Source of the DNA: Lentisphaerota bacterium
GTDB lineage: Bacteria; Verrucomicrobiota; Lentisphaeria; Victivallales; Victivallaceae
Reading direction: 5' to 3'
Assembly (NCBI GenBank): GCA_015061575.1
Contig: SUWF01000001.1
Location: 49,612 to 113,611 of the forward strand
DNA length: 64,000 nt
In this document: positions 3,079 through 61,614 of the stretch, in pieces
How the letters are laid out: every line of letters starts with the position of its first letter
Position numbering within the stretch: the stretch's first letter is position 1
Notes under the pieces: model-generated
Told to the model about the DNA's origin: nothing
The model's input: the letters and a program-made list of their open reading frames with translations, nothing else
Database searches by the model: none
Made by a program: the position numbers and the translations under genes

Positions 3079-3133
3079 AACCAAAGTTATGTAAATGGCT
3101 GAAAGGCCGCAACTGATAAAGGAACAGGGTGTT

Positions 3134-6100
3134 GTGAAAAGTAAACTTTACGGATTGATTCTGGCTTTGCTGATGCTGGCAATGGCCGGAGCAGGGGCTG
3201 GAGATTTTACGCTGCAGGAAAAAAATGGATCGTTTGCGATCACGTTCAGAGACCGGGAACTTATTTCGGAAAGTCTCTTTACGATCGATGGCAAAAATGT
3301 TTTTAAGCCCGGCGAGCTGACGGTGGAAAAAAAGCAGCTGGCGGATGGCTCCACGGCTTTCAATATCTGGAGCAAAGACCCGCAGCGGCGCTATCGGCAG
3401 GAAGGTGTGATCAGTGCCGACGGCAAGCGTCTGGAATTGAATATGCAGTTCGATTATCTGGCTTATTCGCCTGCCGAGGGCAAAGTTGTGGAATATATCT
3501 TGAAAATGCCGTTCAAGCCGCTGGCCGGCTGCCGGTTTGAAGCTGTTCATGGCCGCAATATGCGTCCGGTTTGGCAAAAAGGGGTGATCGCTGCGGATCT
3601 GAAAGGCAACCTGACTGCCGACCGGGCCAGAATGTTGACGATCAAATTGCCGGAAGGCGATGTGCTGTTGGATTTTTCGCCGCAAGGCGTGTGCAATTAT
3701 GCAGGTGCTACCGGCAATACTTGCATTGGCATGTGGCAGGTCGCCCGCATGAAGGAAGATCCGGAGGTTCTGAGTCTGGCGGCTATCCGCAAGGTTCCCG
3801 CCTGGGGCGGCGGCATTGCCGGAAAAGTGGTGATCACAGCCGGTTCCAGCAAAGAATACAATACTTATCACCCCCGGAAAAAATATTCTTATTATGATGC
3901 GCTGCCAGCTCAGAAGCTTTACAGCTTTGGTGCGGAAAAGGTCGGTCGCAAATACAGCAAGCTTGATTTGCGCGCTGCCGGCAAGCTCGATGGCTGGGCC
4001 GATCCGGGCAATGGCAAGATCGTTGCCGGCAAGCATCCCGGAGCATTTTATTCGGCGGTAGCCGGTTCCGGAAAGGCTTTGCTCAAAGTTAAGGATCTGC
4101 AGCCCGGGTATTACTTTGTAACAGCCGGGATCGGTAATTTTGACCGGCAGAAAAATAAATTTTCCATCAAGGTCAATGGCGTGGATCTTGCTAAAGATAT
4201 TACCGTAAAAGCTGGTGAAGCTGCTTCGCTGACCAGGGTTTTCAAGCTCGATAAGGGCGTTGCGGATATTGAATTTACCGGCAACTGGCGCATATCTACG
4301 CTGGGTTTTCAGCTGTTGAGTAATTTTTACGAGGACTACAGCTTCAGCCGTGGGTTCTGGGTGACCGATGGATTTGAACCCGGAGTTATGTACAACAACA
4401 GCCACTATGCCAAGGAGCCGGCTTTTGCTACCGGCCGTACTGATGTGGTTATGCCGGATCCGGATAAAGCTCCGGCTCCGGTCAAATCGCTGGTTTATAC
4501 GGTCAAACAGCCCTCGGCCAAGGCGCAGGAAAATATGCGCTGGCGCTATACGGCAAGAGTTTCGCAAGTCGGAACGCAGAACAATGGTACTTTCCAGGAA
4601 TTTATCCAGCCCGGTGCGGTCGAACGGCGCATGGATGAGCTGAAAAAAGAAAATTTCAATCTGATCATAGTCAGTGGATTGCTTTCGCGGCACACTTATC
4701 CTGCGCACCTGCAGCGGGTTCGCAGGCAGGTCAAACGTATGGCCGCCGCCGCCCATGAGCGGGGCATGAAGTTTTATGACCACATCGACTATATCCTGCT
4801 GTGGAATATGGATTCCGGTTTCCGGGTCGCTGCCGAAAAACCGTTCTGGCTGGCCCGTGAATTGGATACACTGCTGCCGACGACCGACTTCTGCGTCAAT
4901 AACCACGAACGCAATTTGGCGTACCGCAAGTATTTGAAAAAATATATCCAGGATACCGCCATTGACGGGATCATGATCGATGAAGTATGCTTCCCGGGCG
5001 GCAATTTCTGTGGCTGCGGCGATTGCCGGGAAGATTTTACTGCCGATACGGCGCAGGAATGGCCGCTCAATGAAATGGCCCCCGATCAAATCACTGCCAA
5101 AGGATCGCAAGCGGCTACTGCATTGGCTAAAACTCATCAGGCGTGGCGGCGCAAACGGGTCGGCGACTGGTGGGTGGAATTGCGCAGCTTTTTGGATAAA
5201 GATTATCCGGAGTTTGGATTTTTCTGTTACTCCACGCATTATGGTTTGAGCAGCAATTATGCTTCCAACAGTCTGGGGTTTGATTTGCTGCAGGTCGGTA
5301 GGGCAGTGGATTTTCTGGGTACTGAGATCATGCCGAGAAATGTCTGGGCGTGTGCCCGGCCGCTCTTTTCTTACCGCAAGGCTAAAAATATGCTGCGCAA
5401 TGCGTTTGGTATGCCGGTCTATGGGCAGATCTATGCGCCCGGCGGCTGGGACGTTGCTTACTTTGGCTGGGGCTTGATGAATATGAATGCGCAGGTTTAC
5501 TGGGCTGAGCCGCCGATGGCATGTCCGCCCGGAAAGTCCGATTATTACAAGTTTTCCGACCGCAATATGGATATTGGCAAGGCGGTCAGCTGTGCTGATG
5601 TGGCGCTGCTTTTTTCCAGTCAGGGGCGCGATAATGGCGTGCGCATGAATTATAAAGTTGAACTCTTCGGTATGGCGCAGACTTTGGGCGAAATGCATGT
5701 CAATTATGATATTATTTGCGATACTGTGCTTTCGCTGGAGCAGCTCAAAAAATACAAGGTGTTGTGGGTGGGGGCCTCGGCTCCGCTGTCGGATAACCAG
5801 ATAGCAATCATCCGCAAATTTGCAGAGCAGGGCGGGCATGTGGTGCTGGGCCCCATTGCGGCTGTGGCCAATGAATATGGTCAAATGCGTGATAAGTGGC
5901 CGTTTGAAGATCTGTTCAAATTCAAACCCGCCAGCCGTCAGAGCAAGGTCAGCCGACTGGATCTGGATAACGGTACGACGGTGACACCAGCTAAGATCAT
6001 TCCGGCCTGGCTGCCGGATCCGCGCAATATGAAAATGCCTGCTGCTCCGGTAACTATGGTTTGGGGTAAGACCCGTATTCCGGCGATTTTCAACGCTCCA

Positions 6101-6586
6101 CTGGGGAAGGGGCAGGTCATGTTTATGCCGCTGGCCATCGGTTCGGTGCTGGTACAGGAAGAGATGATGGTAGGCCGCAAGCTGAATTTTGAGTTGGACG
6201 AAAATACTGCTGCAGCCTGCCGGTATTTGTGGGAAAGTATCCTCAAGAATGCTCAGGCCGGCACCTGGCAGTGTCAGGCTCCGGGTAAGGTGTTGAGTAC
6301 CCTTTATAAGCAGGATGATTGCTATTATGCCCACTTTTTGAACGCTACCGGAGTGAATCTTAAAAAAGATGATGTGGTGACGGTCAATATGCCGGAAAAT
6401 GCGTTCCCGATGATCGGAAAAGATATCGTCTTTACGCTGCCGGATGATTCGCTGACCGTGGCCGAAGCTGCCAGCCCGGACTTTGAAGGCTGGAAAAAAC
6501 TTCCGCTGCGTAAGGTTGCCGGAGGCGTGGAAATAACTTTGAGCAAGGAGCTGCTTAAAGTTTATGCCATGGTGCGGATTAAGTAA
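3134..6586 (+). CDS. Large secreted glycosidase-like protein with TIM-barrel and beta-galactosidase-trimerisation-like domain
   Basis: From GTG 3134 the protein is 1150 residues and begins with a signal peptide (MKSKLYGLILALLMLAMAGA, then GAG). GTG is preferred over the ATG at 3095 because AAAGGAA lies upstream and the signal peptide then starts at residue 1. An N-terminal all-beta half of roughly 420 residues is followed by a barrel-like region containing DGIMIDEVCFPGG and a CGCGDCREDF cysteine cluster. Next comes a Rossmann-like segment (VLWVGASAPLSDNQIAIIRK) resembling the GH42 trimerisation domain. The IDE acidic pair is a plausible catalytic site. It is a paralogue of the protein at 58279-61614 (same order, same ending KVYxMVRI). 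It has its own promoter and a strong terminator, so it is monocistronic. I cannot assign a known CAZy family. Confidence 0.75.
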   Translation: MKSKLYGLILALLMLAMAGAGAGDFTLQEKNGSFAITFRDRELISESLFTIDGKNVFKPGELTVEKKQLADGSTAFNIWSKDPQRRYRQEGVISADGKRLELNMQFDYLAYSPAEGKVVEYILKMPFKPLAGCRFEAVHGRNMRPVWQKGVIAADLKGNLTADRARMLTIKLPEGDVLLDFSPQGVCNYAGATGNTCIGMWQVARMKEDPEVLSLAAIRKVPAWGGGIAGKVVITAGSSKEYNTYHPRKKYSYYDALPAQKLYSFGAEKVGRKYSKLDLRAAGKLDGWADPGNGKIVAGKHPGAFYSAVAGSGKALLKVKDLQPGYYFVTAGIGNFDRQKNKFSIKVNGVDLAKDITVKAGEAASLTRVFKLDKGVADIEFTGNWRISTLGFQLLSNFYEDYSFSRGFWVTDGFEPGVMYNNSHYAKEPAFATGRTDVVMPDPDKAPAPVKSLVYTVKQPSAKAQENMRWRYTARVSQVGTQNNGTFQEFIQPGAVERRMDELKKENFNLIIVSGLLSRHTYPAHLQRVRRQVKRMAAAAHERGMKFYDHIDYILLWNMDSGFRVAAEKPFWLARELDTLLPTTDFCVNNHERNLAYRKYLKKYIQDTAIDGIMIDEVCFPGGNFCGCGDCREDFTADTAQEWPLNEMAPDQITAKGSQAATALAKTHQAWRRKRVGDWWVELRSFLDKDYPEFGFFCYSTHYGLSSNYASNSLGFDLLQVGRAVDFLGTEIMPRNVWACARPLFSYRKAKNMLRNAFGMPVYGQIYAPGGWDVAYFGWGLMNMNAQVYWAEPPMACPPGKSDYYKFSDRNMDIGKAVSCADVALLFSSQGRDNGVRMNYKVELFGMAQTLGEMHVNYDIICDTVLSLEQLKKYKVLWVGASAPLSDNQIAIIRKFAEQGGHVVLGPIAAVANEYGQMRDKWPFEDLFKFKPASRQSKVSRLDLDNGTTVTPAKIIPAWLPDPRNMKMPAAPVTMVWGKTRIPAIFNAPLGKGQVMFMPLAIGSVLVQEEMMVGRKLNFELDENTAAACRYLWESILKNAQAGTWQCQAPGKVLSTLYKQDDCYYAHFLNATGVNLKKDDVVTVNMPENAFPMIGKDIVFTLPDDSLTVAEAASPDFEGWKKLPLRKVAGGVEITLSKELLKVYAMVRIK

Positions 6587-37876: not shown

Positions 37877-37905
37877 TTGACAAAGAGTGCTTTTTATGCT
37901 AAGTT
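37877..37905 (+). promoter_or_regulatory. Promoter of the HprK-like/PqqD/ABC cassette
   Basis: TTGACA (37877-37882), 17-bp spacer, TAAGTT (37900-37905). The -35 box is perfect and the -10 box weak. Confidence 0.55.
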
Positions 37906-37925
37906 ATGCGGGAGGGAATGTGGGC

Positions 37926-37970
37926 GTGAGAATGTTGGTGTATCAGTTGCCGCTGAATGCTGCGGCTTAA
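37926..37970 (+). CDS. Tiny open frame, candidate leader or precursor peptide
   Basis: GTG at 37926 lies nine bases after the strong GGGAGGG site and encodes MRMLVYQLPLNAAA before TAA. An internal ATG at 37932 would give 12 residues, and a GTG at 37920 would give 16. The ribosome site is the best one in the cassette, yet the next large gene at 37995 has only a weak one, so ribosomes probably initiate here. It may be a peptide substrate for the PqqD-like system, a regulatory leader, or chance. No cysteine is present. Evidence is only position and spacing. Confidence 0.3.
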   Translation: MRMLVYQLPLNAAA

Positions 37971-37994
37971 AAATCTTGAAACCAAGTTGGATTT

Positions 37995-38861
37995 ATGAAG
38001 CAAATCAGTTTTCCGCTGAGCCGGCATGAATGTATTACTTTGCAGGGAAACTACAGTTCCACGGCGGGCGATATTGAATTGTTGGGTCGCCTGACCGGAT
38101 TGCCGCTGGTGGAAAAGAGTCAGTGCGCTCCGGAAGTTGTCTGGGAGCCGTGCGGCAAGCCGGTTCCGCCGGATAGTGTGGTGGTTTACCGGACCAAAAC
38201 GGTTCGCATGGTCTATTGTGACAATGACCACTCTTTTCACCTTTATCTACTCAATGATTCCCAGCTGTACCGGAAAATATATGGGGTGTTTTTGTGGCAT
38301 CTTTCCATACTTTGCGCAGCGGTCGCGGCAATTTTGCGGGGCAAAAAAGTACTGATCGTGCATTGCTCAATGTTGGAAAAAGCTTCCCGGGCATTGCTGC
38401 TTATGGGCGAGAGCGGCATCGGCAAAAGCACCAGTATGCGGCGCTGGCAAGCATCCGGCGGACGGGGCGTAAGCGATGATATGGTTTTGCTGGAATATGC
38501 TGAAGATGACCGGATATTGGTGCATCATATGCCGACTTGGAGTGCCTGCCGGGTCGGGTTGGAAAATTTGTATTATCCGTTTGAAGTACCGCTGGAACTT
38601 GCCAGTGTGCTGGCGGTCACCCGCGGCAAAGATACGGAAGTGGTGGACAAGGTAAGTTATGCAGAATTTTTTGCGCAAATTTACCGTTGCTGTTTTTACC
38701 ATTATTTGTTTGTAGCCGGGGAGTTGCCGGAACCGGAAAAAAAGCTGCTGACTTCTGCGGTGCGGGAGTGGGCAGAGGTTATTGCCGGACGCTTCCCGCA
38801 TCGGGCTTTGTTCGCTCATTTGGATGGCAATATAAGTAAAAGTTTGGAGGGTATTTTATGA
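37995..38861 (+). CDS. HPr kinase-like P-loop protein
   Basis: The 288-residue protein has a P-loop LLLMGESGIGKSTSMRRW (K144) and a following GRGVSDDMVLLE (D161, D162), the arrangement of HPr kinase/phosphorylase catalytic domains. The CSMLEKASRALLL strand before the P-loop also fits. The first 115 residues are a family-specific N-terminal domain. No HPr, PTS or HprK N-terminal domain is nearby. HprK-like kinases paired with PqqD-like proteins occur in lasso-peptide clusters, where one such kinase phosphorylates a precursor, and in uncharacterised HPr-rel systems. The stop overlaps the next start by four bases. The substrate is unknown. Confidence 0.8.
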   Translation: MKQISFPLSRHECITLQGNYSSTAGDIELLGRLTGLPLVEKSQCAPEVVWEPCGKPVPPDSVVVYRTKTVRMVYCDNDHSFHLYLLNDSQLYRKIYGVFLWHLSILCAAVAAILRGKKVLIVHCSMLEKASRALLLMGESGIGKSTSMRRWQASGGRGVSDDMVLLEYAEDDRILVHHMPTWSACRVGLENLYYPFEVPLELASVLAVTRGKDTEVVDKVSYAEFFAQIYRCCFYHYLFVAGELPEPEKKLLTSAVREWAEVIAGRFPHRALFAHLDGNISKSLEGIL

Positions 38862-39118
38862 AAGTAAATCCGTTTGCAGTTATGCAGGAAGAATTTGATC
38901 ATACCGGCATTGTTTTTAATCCCGATAACAACCGGGTGCTGACTTTGAACAAAAGCGGTGTGGTGCTGTGGAAGGCTTTTGAAGAAAATTGTACACTCGA
39001 CGAAGCGGCGGCTTTGCTGGTGGAAAGATTTGACGGCGTTACACTGGAAGATGCCCGGCGTGATGCGGAAACTTTTGCCGCCTGCCTGGTGGAAAAATCC
39101 CTCCTGAGTATGGATTAA
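38858..39118 (+). CDS. PqqD-family protein (RiPP precursor recognition element)
   Basis: The 86-residue protein has the PqqD pattern: a beta hairpin ending in GIVFNPDNNRVLTLNKSG, then VVLWKAFEENCTLDEAAALL and a C-terminal winged helix FDGVTLEDARRDAETFAACL. PqqD-like domains bind leader peptides and present them to modifying enzymes. GGAGGG lies upstream, and the ATGA overlap with the HprK-like gene shows translational coupling. No radical-SAM, cyclodehydratase, transglutaminase or asparagine-synthetase partner lies in this window, which is unusual. Confidence 0.85.
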   Translation: MKVNPFAVMQEEFDHTGIVFNPDNNRVLTLNKSGVVLWKAFEENCTLDEAAALLVERFDGVTLEDARRDAETFAACLVEKSLLSMD

Positions 39119-39127
39119 GCGTTGTTT

Positions 39128-39193
39128 ATGGTATCGCCGGCTATTGCGGCAGCGGCATGTATCCGGGGTAGCGTTTTTGGAAAAAAGCTGTAA
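39128..39193 (+). CDS. Tiny open frame with a cysteine, second precursor-peptide candidate
   Basis: ATG 39128 encodes MVSPAIAAAACIRGSVFGKK plus a final L before TAA, 21 residues. It fills the gap between the PqqD-like gene (stop 39118) and the ABC transporter (ATG 39195), and its stop is one base before that ATG. No convincing ribosome site precedes it, so coupling to the PqqD gene would be needed. A hydrophobic Ala-rich part and one Cys are compatible with a small modified peptide, but a chance frame is at least as likely. Confidence 0.25.
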   Translation: MVSPAIAAAACIRGSVFGKKL

Positions 39194-39194
39194 A

Positions 39195-40838
39195 ATGATG
39201 AAAAAAAATAAATCCACGCTCAGACGATTGATTTTTTCGGCGGCCTTCCGGCGTTATTCGCTGACAGTCGTGGCGGCCGAAGCCGTGGCTGTGCTGCTGG
39301 GGGCGGTCAGTCCGCTGGCTCAGAAATTTATGATCGATGGCGCCAGCCGGGGAACGTTGTCAGCTGTGTTGTATGCGGCAAGCGTTTTGGCTCTGCTGCT
39401 GGTGGGCCAGTTTGCCTTGCGCAGTCTGGGGCGTCTGCTGCGTGGTATATTGGGTGTGGAACTGCACAAAAAGCTGAAAAGCGATATTTTCCGTCATCTG
39501 CTGGCCTTGCCGGAGGAGTTTTTGCGCAGCCGGGGCGCCGGATATTTTTTCAACCGCATCCAGCACGATATTGGCGAAATCGGCGCTTTTGTTACCGGCA
39601 ACGGGCTGCTGCAGTATTCCGAAATGGTCAAACTGGCGGCGGCAGCTTTGGTGATATTATATTTGAATTGGTCGTGCCTGCTGTTGCTGCTGCCGTTTCT
39701 GCTGCTGCAGGTGTTTTTTTGTTACCGATTCCGGCGGCGGCAGTATCAATTGGCGCACCAGCTGCAGGAGTGTGTGGCGCAGGAGCGGCAGCTGATGCAG
39801 GAGTATCTGGCAACGCACACGATCGTTAAGACCCATTCCGTCGGTGCCAGTGCCGGAGAACGTATCGATGACGGCTTGAGCAGATGGGGCAGTTTGATGC
39901 GCAACCGTCTTGGCCACGAAAATGTCTTCCTGGCCTGTTTGCAGATACCCATGTGGCTCTGCGGCGGATCGATCCTGCTGTTCGGACTTTATCAGGTGAT
40001 CGAACAGCAAACGACTTTGGGCGAAGTCTGGGCGCTGCTGATGCTGATGAATATGTTTTTTGCGCCCGCCCGGACTTTGGGCGGGATCATCGTCCAACAG
40101 CAGTCGGCATTGGCCGCCTGGTGGCGTTTGCAGGAACTTTGGCGAACGGATACAGAAGACGGTGCAGGCAGTGTACCTGAAGTCGATTTAAGGGGAGAGG
40201 TGGTGTTCGATAAAGTCGTATTTGGCTACAATCCCAGCCGGATGATCTTGAATAAACTTTCGTTGCAGGTGCCGTGGGGCAGTGGAGTTTTTTTGTGCGG
40301 AGCCAATGGCAGCGGCAAAAGCACTTTATTTTCGCTGTTGCTGCGGCTCTACGCTCCCGGGCAGGGCAGTATAAAAATCAACAACTGCAATATCAACGAT
40401 TATCCGCTGGCTGAGTACCGGCAGCGGATCGGTTATATCGGTCAATATTTGGAGTTTATTCCCGGAACGCTGCGGGATAATCTGCTGATGGGCAAAACTG
40501 CGGTCAGCGACGAAACACTTGAGGCGTTGTTCCGGCAGCTGGATTGTGCGGATTTGCTTGAACGTTTGCCGGATAAGCTGGATACAATGGTCGCTGAACG
40601 GGGCGAAAATTTTTCCGGCGGCGAACGGCTGCGATTGGTCTTAGTGCGCGAGCTGCTGCGCGATACTGACTGGCTGTTGTTCGACGAAGCCGCTGCCAAT
40701 CTGGATATGGCCGGCCGGCAGCGTTTTTATGAGCTGCTGCAGAAGTTGCCGGGGCAAAAAGGAGTGATTGCTATTGCCCATGATTTGCCGGAAAACTCCA
40801 GTTGGCCGGTGCTGCAGATCGAAAAATTACAGGAATAA
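39195..40838 (+). CDS. ABC transporter, fused membrane and ATPase domains (exporter type)
   Basis: From ATG 39195 the protein is 547 residues, with a six-span membrane domain in the first 310 residues and an ATPase domain containing GANGSGKST (369-377), GYIGQYLEFIPGTLRDNLLM (Q-loop), FSGGERLRLVLVRELL (signature), WLLFDEAAANLD (Walker B) and IAIAHD (H-loop). There is no C39 peptidase domain, as in lasso-peptide or multidrug-type exporters. The frame is open upstream to a TTG at 39144, but the ATG follows the tiny frame directly. As the third large gene of the cassette it probably exports or secures immunity to the product of the system. Confidence 0.88.
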   Translation: MMKKNKSTLRRLIFSAAFRRYSLTVVAAEAVAVLLGAVSPLAQKFMIDGASRGTLSAVLYAASVLALLLVGQFALRSLGRLLRGILGVELHKKLKSDIFRHLLALPEEFLRSRGAGYFFNRIQHDIGEIGAFVTGNGLLQYSEMVKLAAAALVILYLNWSCLLLLLPFLLLQVFFCYRFRRRQYQLAHQLQECVAQERQLMQEYLATHTIVKTHSVGASAGERIDDGLSRWGSLMRNRLGHENVFLACLQIPMWLCGGSILLFGLYQVIEQQTTLGEVWALLMLMNMFFAPARTLGGIIVQQQSALAAWWRLQELWRTDTEDGAGSVPEVDLRGEVVFDKVVFGYNPSRMILNKLSLQVPWGSGVFLCGANGSGKSTLFSLLLRLYAPGQGSIKINNCNINDYPLAEYRQRIGYIGQYLEFIPGTLRDNLLMGKTAVSDETLEALFRQLDCADLLERLPDKLDTMVAERGENFSGGERLRLVLVRELLRDTDWLLFDEAAANLDMAGRQRFYELLQKLPGQKGVIAIAHDLPENSSWPVLQIEKLQE

Positions 40839-40881: not shown

Positions 40882-40910
40882 TTGACAATATCAATATTTG
40901 ATGTTATATT
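40882..40910 (+). promoter_or_regulatory. Promoter of the tRNA-Leu gene
   Basis: TTGACA (40882-40887), 17-bp spacer, TATATT (40905-40910), about 14 bases before the tRNA 5' end: the strongest promoter of the window. Confidence 0.8.
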
Positions 40911-40923
40911 AAACAATGTACCA

Positions 40924-41010
40924 GCCGAAGTGGCGGAATTGGCAGACGCACTAGACTCAAAATCTGGCGGTGGTGACACCATGTGGGTTCGATTCCCACC
41001 TTCGGTACCA
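40924..41010 (+). tRNA. tRNA-Leu (anticodon CAA)
   Basis: An 87-base class-II tRNA with a long variable arm. Acceptor stem GCCGAAG pairs with CTTCGGT (first pair G-U), discriminator A and an encoded CCA. The anticodon stem CTAGA/TCTGG encloses the loop CTCAAAA with anticodon CAA at 40958-40960, reading UUG. The T-arm has GGTTCGATTCC. A strong promoter and terminator flank it, so it is a single-gene unit. No integrase or attachment-site duplication was seen beside it. Confidence 0.97.
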
Positions 41011-58278: not shown

Positions 58279-61200
58279 TTAACGTATACGCACCATGGTG
58301 TACACTTTGAACAACTCTTTGGGTAAAACTACCTGAATTTTGCCGTTTTTGAGCTGCTTGAACTTCAATGCTCTGCCGCCTTCAAAGTCCGGACTGCAGG
58401 CGATAACTTCCCGGCAGTTGGCCTTGGCGATGGTAAAAGTTATATCCTTTTCGACCGGCGGGAAGGCGGGAACCGGCGCTTTGAGTCCGGTGACCTGACC
58501 GGGCTTCATGCAGGCACCTTGCGCATTGATAAAATGCACCACAATACTGCCGTCTTTTTCCTGCCACAGCGAGGTGAAAACCTTTTCCGGAGCATCGGTC
58601 TGCCAGATGTTGGCGGATTTGAAAACCGCAGTGAGTTCTTTCTGATAGAGCTTCTGCAATTCAGCATCGTGGTTGTATCCCCACTTGTGATTCGGCATGA
58701 GTTCGGATTCGTAAAGTTCGCTGGCAATCGCCATTGAGCAGTAGATCATTTCGCCTTTGCCGTATTTGGCACGCATTTGCAGCAAATTGGGTTTCTTGAC
58801 GTTTTTGGGCAAAAACGCCGTGACCGGCCGGTTGATCGGTGTAACCTGCATCCGGTAAGCTTTGAGTGCTTTGTAACGGCGGGGATTACCTGGCGAGAAT
58901 CCGAAAATTTCTTTAAACGGCCACACCTTGCGTTTTACCCCGTACTGCGTGTAAGCTCCGGCAATGGTTGACAGATACACCGTTCCGCCGTTGCGGGCAA
59001 ACGCCTTGATCGCTTCGATCTCCTGATCGCTCAGGCAGCCGGCACCGCTGATCGCCAGCAATTTATATTTGCTGAGGACCTTTTCGTTCAAACTCATGCT
59101 GCCGACAAATTCATAGGGTATGTGCAGTGTTTCCAGCGTCTGCGCCAAGCCGTAAAGTTCCGATGGATAACTGACCCGCACGTTCCAGTCCCGGCTGTCC
59201 GGCGAAAAGAGCAGGGCGGCTTTGGCCAGCACTTTGCTGCCCACGCGCTGCATATTTATCGGCAGGGCATTGAAACGTTCAAAATCCACTCCGTTGGCCG
59301 GGCGTTCCAAAAATGACGGCTTCATGCTGCTTTGACCTGTCATGTTGGCAATGCCCCAGGCAAAATAGGCTGACGGCCAGTCGTGGACATAATACCAGGC
59401 ATCTACCGGCATACCGTAGGCCAGAGTAAAGACATTCTGGGTGCGGCGGAACGGCAGCAGACTGCGGGAGGTTTGAATGACATTGCGGGTCATGACTTCG
59501 GTGCCGACCCAATCCAGCACCCGGCTCTGGTCAAAAAGATCCCAGCCCAGATTGACAGTCCGGCGGCTGCGGACGATGTAGCCGCGGTGAGTGGAGTAGT
59601 TGCGCAGCACCAGTTTGGGATTGAATTTATTGAGATATTTGCGCATGGCAATGTAACAATTCGTGATCGATATATCCCGCCAGGTGCTCCAGCGTTTCCA
59701 CAATTCCGAATCCGGATTATTGATGTTTTTATCCAGTTCATTGACTGGCAACTGACAGCCGGTCGCCCGGTAAAACTCATTGCGGCAGTAGCTGCATGCG
59801 CAGGAGTGCGGCCAGTAGTTGAACTCATCCAGCTGGAAGCCATCTACCCCCAGTTTGACCAGATCGGCCAGATACTCAAAGTATACTTTCTGATACAGCG
59901 GATTATTGGGGCAGAGCTGGAACGTCGGCAGCTGATCCATGTAAGCTCTGCTCAGGTGCGGCAGCCGTTCAGTCAAAACCCGCGGTCCGGCGTCGCTGTT
60001 CCACAAGATCGTGGTCGAGTGGTGGTCGATGAGCTTGATGTTGCGGGCGTGGGCAGCTTTGACAATACGTCCGACGGCCGCTTTGCCCCGCTCAAGATGG
60101 CTGAAGTAGGTGTGTCTGGTGTGCATTCCTGAAAGCTCAATAGAGGTGTAGTTTTTATCTTTGAGCAGATTATCCATGTAACGGTTCAGGCGTTTGGGAT
60201 CGTCCATTTCGGCCATGGTGGCGGCGTGGCCGAGCATCTTGGCGCTGTTGACGTTATGCAGCCAGGCAAATTCCTTCTGGCTCAGATCCTGATGCCAGAC
60301 CGGGCGTTCCGGTTCCCGGGGATTTTTCGGCAGCTCCGTACCGGGTACGGGCAGCGTTATTTCCTCAATGGAAGTGGGGAATACCGGTTTTTTTGCATAA
60401 TTTTCGTTGCGGTATATGTTGCTGGGTTCATAGCCGTTGGTGAGCCACAAACCACGGTTGAAGGAGTAGTCTTCGGAATCAAACAGCACCGGCTGTACGG
60501 CGATGGTCGAAAGTATATAGTTGCCTTCGAGCGTAAATTCCAACGTGTTGTTCTGCACATGGATGGTTTTGCTGCCCAGCCAGGCGGTGCGTTTTTTTAC
60601 CGAAACATCCTTGCCGATCATCTTACCGTTGATTGTTACATCAAATTTATTTTCAGCTCCGGAATAGTTGCCGGCGCCAACAGTCGCTACATAAAAACCA
60701 TTGGTCAGGCCGCTGACCTTAAAAGTCCGCTTGCCCTGACCGTAAATATGTGCATAGTAAGCTCCTTCCGGCGAACCGATGCGTTTGGCGGGCAGTTCCG
60801 TATCGCCTACCCAGCCAAAGCTGCTTTGGTCACTGAATTTCTGATTCCCGGCGGTGTAGATCTTGCCGAATTTATCAGCTCCGAAACTGTACAATTTGCT
60901 GGGGAACAAATGTTGATTGTATACATAAGTGCGCATACTGTGCAACTTGTCGTAATCGCTGTTCACGCCCTCCCGGATAACGATTTTGGCACCGGTCAAA
61001 CCGCCGTAATTGTAGAGTTCCGAGCCGCCCTGAAACATAAGACGGCCGTCCTGATAGCGGCATCCCCATTGCCCTTTGATCACGCCGACTTTGTACATCA
61101 TGCAGTAATCGGTCGGCCCGATGGGGTTGAAATCCAATATTACACCGTCACAGGCCAGCCAGCGGAACAGATCTTTGGTTTTTTTGCTGAAAGTCTGCTT

Positions 61201-61614
61201 GTCCGGCAGCCAGAGGCGGCCGTTGGTTTTAAGCGCATCGTAACTTTTGCCGAGCCACAAATCTTTGGGCATGTGCAGATAAAGCATCCGCACCAGATTG
61301 GTGTCATATACTTCGTTTTCTCCGGCGAGGGTGATTTCGATGGTGTTATTGCTTTTGTCGGCGACTTCCAGCCGGAAACGGTTGCCCCGTTTTTCGCACC
61401 AACGGTTCCAGACTTTGCTGCCGTCCGGGAGGGTTTGGAAGCTCTCCTGGACGGGCAGTTGATCCAGCGGCACGCTGGTTTTGACTTCCACGGTTTCAAA
61501 AAGAACCTGATTGTTGCGTTTGATGACAAAGTTTTTGCCTTGCGGCTCTACTGATAAGTCCGCAAACAGCGACGCCGCAGTAAAAAATACTGCAGCCCAA
61601 GATAAAATTTTCAT
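58279..61614 (-). CDS. Large secreted glycosidase-like protein, paralogue of the 3.1-kb gene product
   Basis: The 1111-residue protein has a signal peptide (MKILSWAAVFFTAASLFADL) and the same order of parts as the protein at 3134-6586. An N-terminal beta-rich half is followed by a barrel segment with DGFQLDEFNYWPHSCACSYC, then a YKLLAISGAGCLSDQEIEAI Rossmann-like segment and the ending KELFKVYTMVRIR. The LDE acidic pair and the cysteine cluster match the paralogue. It is the third gene of a minus-strand operon after a GntR/LacI-type regulator and a pseudopilin. No CAZy family could be named with certainty; the beta-galactosidase-trimerisation-like domain suggests GH42-related enzymes. Confidence 0.75.
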   Translation of the reverse strand: MKILSWAAVFFTAASLFADLSVEPQGKNFVIKRNNQVLFETVEVKTSVPLDQLPVQESFQTLPDGSKVWNRWCEKRGNRFRLEVADKSNNTIEITLAGENEVYDTNLVRMLYLHMPKDLWLGKSYDALKTNGRLWLPDKQTFSKKTKDLFRWLACDGVILDFNPIGPTDYCMMYKVGVIKGQWGCRYQDGRLMFQGGSELYNYGGLTGAKIVIREGVNSDYDKLHSMRTYVYNQHLFPSKLYSFGADKFGKIYTAGNQKFSDQSSFGWVGDTELPAKRIGSPEGAYYAHIYGQGKRTFKVSGLTNGFYVATVGAGNYSGAENKFDVTINGKMIGKDVSVKKRTAWLGSKTIHVQNNTLEFTLEGNYILSTIAVQPVLFDSEDYSFNRGLWLTNGYEPSNIYRNENYAKKPVFPTSIEEITLPVPGTELPKNPREPERPVWHQDLSQKEFAWLHNVNSAKMLGHAATMAEMDDPKRLNRYMDNLLKDKNYTSIELSGMHTRHTYFSHLERGKAAVGRIVKAAHARNIKLIDHHSTTILWNSDAGPRVLTERLPHLSRAYMDQLPTFQLCPNNPLYQKVYFEYLADLVKLGVDGFQLDEFNYWPHSCACSYCRNEFYRATGCQLPVNELDKNINNPDSELWKRWSTWRDISITNCYIAMRKYLNKFNPKLVLRNYSTHRGYIVRSRRTVNLGWDLFDQSRVLDWVGTEVMTRNVIQTSRSLLPFRRTQNVFTLAYGMPVDAWYYVHDWPSAYFAWGIANMTGQSSMKPSFLERPANGVDFERFNALPINMQRVGSKVLAKAALLFSPDSRDWNVRVSYPSELYGLAQTLETLHIPYEFVGSMSLNEKVLSKYKLLAISGAGCLSDQEIEAIKAFARNGGTVYLSTIAGAYTQYGVKRKVWPFKEIFGFSPGNPRRYKALKAYRMQVTPINRPVTAFLPKNVKKPNLLQMRAKYGKGEMIYCSMAIASELYESELMPNHKWGYNHDAELQKLYQKELTAVFKSANIWQTDAPEKVFTSLWQEKDGSIVVHFINAQGACMKPGQVTGLKAPVPAFPPVEKDITFTIAKANCREVIACSPDFEGGRALKFKQLKNGKIQVVLPKELFKVYTMVRIR

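Follow-up and report, generated by a model that had tools for sequence, protein, structure and literature searches.

A Kinase–PqqD–ABC Exporter Trio in a Lentisphaerota Bacterium: Predicted Remainder of a Giant-Protein Maturation and Export Operon

The Gene Trio and Its Boundaries

A 64,000-nucleotide stretch of the genome of a Lentisphaerota bacterium (assembly GCA_015061575.1, contig SUWF01000001.1, here C37, positions 49,612 to 113,611 of the forward strand; hereafter the window) carries three same-strand genes—encoding an HprK/PEPCK-fold kinase, a PqqD-like protein, and an ATP-binding cassette (ABC) exporter—that are the subject of this analysis (Table 1). A preliminary description had regarded the trio as a self-contained cassette transcribed from one promoter. 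The three open reading frames (ORFs) were found in the place given there, with the kinase and PqqD genes overlapping by 4 nt (38858-38861).

Table 1. Features of the trio locus (window coordinates)
Feature	Position	Strand	Basis
Promoter-like TTGACA plus weak extended -10 (TGCTAAGTT)	37877..37905	+	read from sequence, unconfirmed
HprK/PEPCK-fold kinase (ScmC-like), 288 aa	37995..38861	+	fold assignment holds
Invariant H123	38361..38363	+	kept in 30/30 aligned sequences
P-loop K144 (GESGIGKST)	38424..38426	+	kept in 30/30 aligned sequences
D161-D162	38475..38480	+	kept in 30/30 aligned sequences
PTWS motif, residues 180-183	38532..38543	+	invariant within kinase family, 30/30 aligned sequences
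PqqD-like protein (ScmD-like), 86 aa	38858..39118	+	PF05402, 48.5 bits (cut-off 23.4)
Scar of S24/S26-like gene start	39128..39193	+	close match over 32 bases (one 1-nt gap), decayed beyond them
Peptidase-less ABC exporter (transmembrane plus nucleotide-binding domain), 547 aa	39195..40838	+	PF00664 and PF00005
Promoter-like site ahead of tRNA-Leu(caa)	40882-40910		promoter scan, 11 of 12
tRNA-Leu(caa), cassette boundary	40924..41010	+	ARAGORN

The residues singled out earlier in the kinase, K144 and D161-D162, are invariant together with H123 in an alignment of 30 kinases that includes the window kinase. The protein scores below the cut-offs of the HPr-kinase families (PF07475, 19.8 of 33.3; TIGR00679, 20.3 of 240); its nearest named family is ScmC (TIGR04249), matched at 43.6 bits, below the NCBI cut-off of 125, and matched at E ≤ 0.001 by all 30 aligned kinases. 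A sequence search of the PDB gave no useful match (best E 0.62), and a scan of the genome contigs with a single kinase sequence gave no lead.

The identification of the second protein as PqqD-like is borne out by its PF05402 match, and the ScmD model (TIGR04248) matches it at 42.5 bits, below the cut-off of 100. The exporter gene starts at ATG 39195 or, alternatively, at ATG 39198; a TTG at 39144, given as the start in the ORF list, lies inside the scar described below. As had been proposed, this exporter is peptidase-less: a Pfam scan of the protein returned ABC_membrane and ABC_tran and no peptidase family. MsbA and type I models score it almost alike (211.6 and 211.9 bits); it falls below the HlyB cut-off (172.7 of 725.55 bits), and is accompanied by no HlyD match anywhere on C37. 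The single promoter fared less well; the TTGACA hexamer is present at 37877, but the promoter scan at its thresholds reports no site there, and finds five sites in the region against 3.3 expected.

The Operon in a Close Relative and a Scar in the Window

In G002, a genome of the same genus, locus L021 carries on one strand the genes for a giant repeat protein, a kinase, a PqqD-like protein, an S24/S26-like protein, an NTP_transf_5 nucleotidyltransferase (PF14907, 110.9 bits), and an ABC protein, with a gap of only 6 nt between the giant-protein and kinase genes. The S24/S26 label, here and below, denotes a sub-threshold family match. The window proteins are 44% (kinase), 80% (PqqD), and 65% (ABC) identical to their G002 counterparts. 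Relatives have two more genes between PqqD and ABC, the first of which survives in the window as a scar, so that the trio cannot be called self-contained.

The scar begins 9 nt past the PqqD stop codon—a spacing identical to that in L021—and aligns to the first 33 nt of the L021 S24/S26-like gene with a score of 31 and one gap; of 127,936 positions across both strands of the window, none besides this one reaches 27. A wider local alignment of the spacer against the same gene has a score that none of 1000 shuffles reaches. Against three other S24/S26-like genes the spacer matches weakly, with 19, 57, and 69 of 1000 shuffles equaling the score; the clear match is to the same-genus gene only. A 3′ remnant of the nucleotidyltransferase gene was also considered in the spacer and was rejected, its score of 18 comparing with a best of 30 among 300 shuffles.

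Elsewhere in the same genome, on contig C46, the S24/S26-like and nucleotidyltransferase parts are fused in one gene of 576 aa. By this comparison the window locus has lost its own S24/S26-like copy, and, given the scar and the fusion gene together, the absence of the other enzymes at the locus is mostly a matter of secondary gene loss, with their functions kept elsewhere. The three remaining genes have evolved under purifying selection relative to G002, with dN/dS (the ratio of nonsynonymous to synonymous substitution rates) of about 0.08 for PqqD, 0.27 for ABC, and 0.30 for the kinase, with dS near saturation and the estimates including time before the deletion; this argues against long inactivity and cannot date the deletion.

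A further PqqD–ABC pair, 61% and 56% identical to that of the window, was noticed in the same-genus genome G004 (L095:3352-5411), where no S24/S26-like, nucleotidyltransferase, or kinase match adjoins it; the kinase found in G004 is on a different contig, next to a PqqD and an S24/S26-like gene belonging to that locus.

Giant Proteins and Their C-Terminal Domain

The giant proteins encoded upstream of relatives' kinases have in common a C-terminal domain (CTD) of about 175 aa, with a tail that is often -KLA, -SLA, or similar. Two CTDs scanned against Pfam matched no family at E ≤ 0.1, and the CTD model bears some resemblance to the autochaperone ends of autotransporter passengers. The proteins terminate at this domain, and five CTD proteins that were scanned matched no barrel family at E ≤ 0.01. 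In the cargo proteins scanned, a simple hydrophobicity window showed no obvious signal peptide, by a narrow margin, with controls chosen by eye, start codons uncertain, and some of the cargo (L028, L040, L091, and the second giant of L098) having no clear CTD. There is no invariant C-terminal Ser in the CTD, and therefore a lasso-like modification site cannot be assumed.

The genome of the window itself has two CTD genes away from the trio: one for a 750-aa AIDA-repeat protein (PF16168 repeats) on contig C71, and a fragment truncated where contig C55 ends, which shares its final eight residues with the G002 giant. Convergent to the latter fragment lies a full-length asparagine synthase gene (L080:7054-9671). 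Large proteins with similar last residues (L-K/F-K-V-Y, by eye) are encoded near regulator-like genes in the window (3095-6586 and 58279-61614) and at L021:1089-4463, and are perhaps an expanded family in this lineage.

Linkage of Kinase and Cargo across the Class

Among 197 genomes of the class, at least 40 contain the CTD, at least 50 the kinase, and at least 31 both; these counts are lower bounds, with up to 12 candidates per genome scored in the kinase search and up to 18 in some genomes for the CTD. A CTD gene lies upstream, at most 3.5 kb away and in the same orientation, for 20 of the 63 kinase matches listed—spread over 15 genomes and three families—and on the opposite strand for none of the 63. 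The remaining 43, the window kinase among them, have no linked CTD. All 13 genera with a CTD fall within the 21 genera with a kinase, out of 85 genera, the two occurring in different genomes for two of the 13. Proteins adjoining kinases were the starting set for the CTD model, and kinase model A2 contains rows from some of the loci tested; 12 of the 20 linkages are in genomes absent from the CTD model. The Fisher tests applied to the linkage ignore relatedness.

Gene content was also compared in 30 strong kinase loci, namely those scoring 150 or more among 42 kinase-like entries after removal of the duplicates L090 and L109. Within 5 kb on the same strand, a PqqD gene was found in 28, an S24/S26-like gene in 22, a CTD gene in 15, an ABC gene in 11, and a nucleotidyltransferase gene in 7. 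Because 12 of the 20 regions in the locus set were selected for a CTD near a kinase, the CTD share (15/30) is biased upwards, and 20/63 is the figure to use. PqqD and ABC genes occur together in 11 of these loci, that of the window included, so that the trio does recur as a unit, a point on which the preliminary description had asked for a neighborhood check. In a kinase tree of 37 rows, from which low-scoring kinases were excluded, the window kinase falls inside a supported clade of eight, in which context is known for two only (L021 and L097), both cargo-linked.

Secretion and Radical SAM Genes in Related Loci

Some kinase clusters include type I secretion genes. In L028 and L113, genes for a kinase, a PqqD-like protein, an S24/S26–nucleotidyltransferase fusion, an HlyB-type ABC protein, and HlyD stand behind that for a giant protein; the L028 giant has RTX-like repeats by eye, and the L113 giant, a 662-aa piece cut by the contig start, ends in the same six residues. 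Locus L026 has the order HlyB, HlyD, PqqD, S24/S26-like, ScmE-like radical S-adenosylmethionine (SAM) protein, and kinase, which is shared by L108, L110, and L115, where HlyB and HlyD were read from ORFs, not family models. HlyD scores above its cut-off in two relatives' clusters. With respect to the genome of the window, contig C4 carries HlyB (651 bits; cut-off 725.55) and HlyD (286.8; cut-off 208.65). Divergent from this pair is a giant protein of at least 1853 aa (L142:12443-18001), a possible further type I cargo, with no CTD match on C4.

The best match of the radical SAM proteins of L026, L108, L110, and L115 is ScmE (TIGR04250; 158.7-173.2 bits, cut-off 400), and in L034 a ScmE-like gene (239.6 bits, below the same cut-off) stands between giant-protein and kinase genes. 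A ScmE-like gene is thus present in five loci, four of them among the 30 strong ones and L034 in addition. The preliminary description had held the lack of radical SAM, ATP-grasp, transglutaminase, and asparagine-synthetase genes to be what is unusual about a minimal system. On C37, there is indeed no radical SAM (PF04055) or asparagine-synthase (PF00733) match at E ≤ 1e-5, the genome having 21 and 2, with the PF00733 matches on C55 and C42 only; ATP-grasp and transglutaminase genes were not searched for. Its reading as the mark of a minimal system is not supported, S24/S26-like, nucleotidyltransferase, and radical SAM genes being present in loci counted above.

Two further observations concern radical SAM genes. 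In the genome of the window, a set of paired radical SAM genes occurs twice, on C8 (L083:2383-4567) and C35 (L082:1102-3952), with partial PqqD matches in frame and, upstream of the C8 set, a 55-codon Cys-containing ORF; these look like a separate system for ribosomally synthesized and post-translationally modified peptides (RiPPs). Small Cys- and Gly/Ala-rich ORFs at L036:2073-2282 and L038:1470-1769 lie near divergent kinase, ABC, and S24/S26-like genes, with radical SAM-like genes nearby by eye or Pfam, and are possibly true RiPP precursors of distant members of the kinase family.

Comparison with Known Systems

No publication on this system was found in searches of one open-licence library. 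The SynChlorMet families ScmC, ScmD, and ScmE are the nearest named relatives, all scores lying below the NCBI cut-offs. Unlike the SynChlorMet cassette with its radical SAM proteins ScmE/ScmF, C37 has no PF04055 match—a ScmE-like protein being encoded in the five related loci—and the neighbors of these genes in the relatives are giant-protein or type I secretion genes.

The kinase of the relatives, standing near a PF14907 nucleotidyltransferase, resembles the lasso-peptide pair PsmK/PsmN, with PsmN presumably a member of PF14907. However, the cyclase of lasso systems, which is asparagine-synthetase-like, has no PF00733 counterpart on C37, no lasso precursor was noticed by eye among the small ORFs at the trio, and the relatives carry an extra S24/S26-like gene and giant cargo. 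In PMC9266682, a His-Lys-Asp-Asp set is stated for lasso-peptide kinases, the group of PadeK/ThcoK and PsmK, to which H123, K144, D161, and D162 would correspond, residue equivalence being assumed. An HPr kinase, PqqD, and a nucleotidyltransferase are likewise reported with rumen lasso clusters in PMC7533575.

Points in common with type I secretion are the HlyB–HlyD genes within the kinase clusters of L026, L028, and L113 and in the genome of the window, cargo with no obvious signal peptide, and the giant of L028, RTX-like by eye, whereas the ABC protein of the window is a short half-transporter with no adaptor. Textbook type I systems are not known to include a kinase, a PqqD-like protein, or a nucleotidyltransferase. 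Monomeric autotransporters such as IcsA, pertactin, and Ag43 share AIDA-type repeats with the C71 protein, and the autochaperone end of their passenger may be comparable to the CTD fold; the cargo differs from them in terminating at the CTD, in having no barrel family in the five proteins scanned, and in showing no obvious Sec signal.

Proposed Function and Alternatives

Taken together, these comparisons make it reasonably probable that the trio is the remainder of a larger operon for maturation and export of giant proteins, predicted to act on the giant adhesin-like proteins encoded elsewhere in the genome. As a leftover of an operon headed, in several related bacteria, by a giant adhesin-like gene, the trio would likely mark and export giants, and the substrate is likely a giant protein rather than a small antibiotic-like peptide. 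The best reading of the predicted function is that RiPP-type enzymes have been redeployed for the maturation and export of giant surface proteins. In such a process, the cargo would be bound by the PqqD-like protein, probably through the conserved CTD, where a Ser/Thr would be phosphorylated by the kinase. The C46 fusion protein, supplied in trans, may then trim the cargo, attach a sugar or nucleotide to the phosphorylated residue, or do both; PsmK/PsmN of pseudomycoidin provide the analogy. Export, with no Sec signal peptide involved, would be through the ABC exporter and/or HlyB–HlyD. The CTD may cap the folding protein, much as an autochaperone does at the end of an autotransporter passenger, only with no barrel following. 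A bolder proposal, which we regard as doubtful at present, is a distinct secretion route—that is, signal-peptide-less, barrel-less giants would be captured by a PqqD-like adaptor at an autochaperone-like CTD and marked by RiPP-derived enzymes through phosphorylation (joined by glycosylation or nucleotidylation where the nucleotidyltransferase takes part); ABC machinery would then export them, the marking being the export ticket.

The idea of the preliminary description that an HprK-like modifying kinase works with a RiPP-type recognition protein, beside an exporter, stands; a minimal RiPP system, in which a small unannotated precursor would be bound by the PqqD-like protein, phosphorylated by the kinase, and released through the ABC protein, now appears improbable. 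The PqqD-type domain, the ScmC/ScmD affinities, and the residues like those stated for lasso-peptide kinases are all consistent with such a system, as are the small Cys-rich ORFs of L036 and L038, yet the two context-known relatives in the clade of the window kinase have a giant protein upstream instead. A precursor beside the trio was looked for by eye only, among small ORFs of at least 18 aa, and rejected; none is precursor-like, and one between PqqD and ABC overlaps the scar.

The scar and internal deletion, the separation of the trio from cargo, and the failure to find kinase and CTD in the same-genus genomes G001 and G003 (draft assemblies, 80% and 89% complete) could also mean that the trio is a decaying remnant, non-functional after loss of the S24/S26-like and nucleotidyltransferase genes. 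This is quite unlikely, however, since the three frames are intact, the catalytic residues are kept, the dN/dS values, with the saturation noted above, are low, and the missing functions persist as a fusion gene. Least credible is a regulatory or unrelated role, in which the kinase senses the energy state like HprK and controls surface-protein expression, the short ABC protein exporting a lipid or other substrate. The HprK/PEPCK fold and the near-equal MsbA and type I scores would accommodate it; the sub-cut-off HPr-kinase scores speak against it, and the PqqD, S24/S26-like, and nucleotidyltransferase neighbors point to protein modification.

Implications

PqqD-type domains and HprK-like kinases are customarily read as marks of small RiPP peptides. 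Here such genes are tied to giant adhesin-like proteins by the order of genes in 15 genomes, which belong to three families of the class. If the giant-protein reading is true, such loci are being misassigned by genome-mining pipelines, and the CTD proteins offer testable substrates for uncharacterised ScmC/ScmD-like and NTP_transf_5 proteins. The locus also illustrates how deletion can produce a seemingly "minimal" gene set, the lost functions being kept in trans. Overall, the trio would be a reduced example of a cassette by which giant proteins lacking a barrel are matured and exported.

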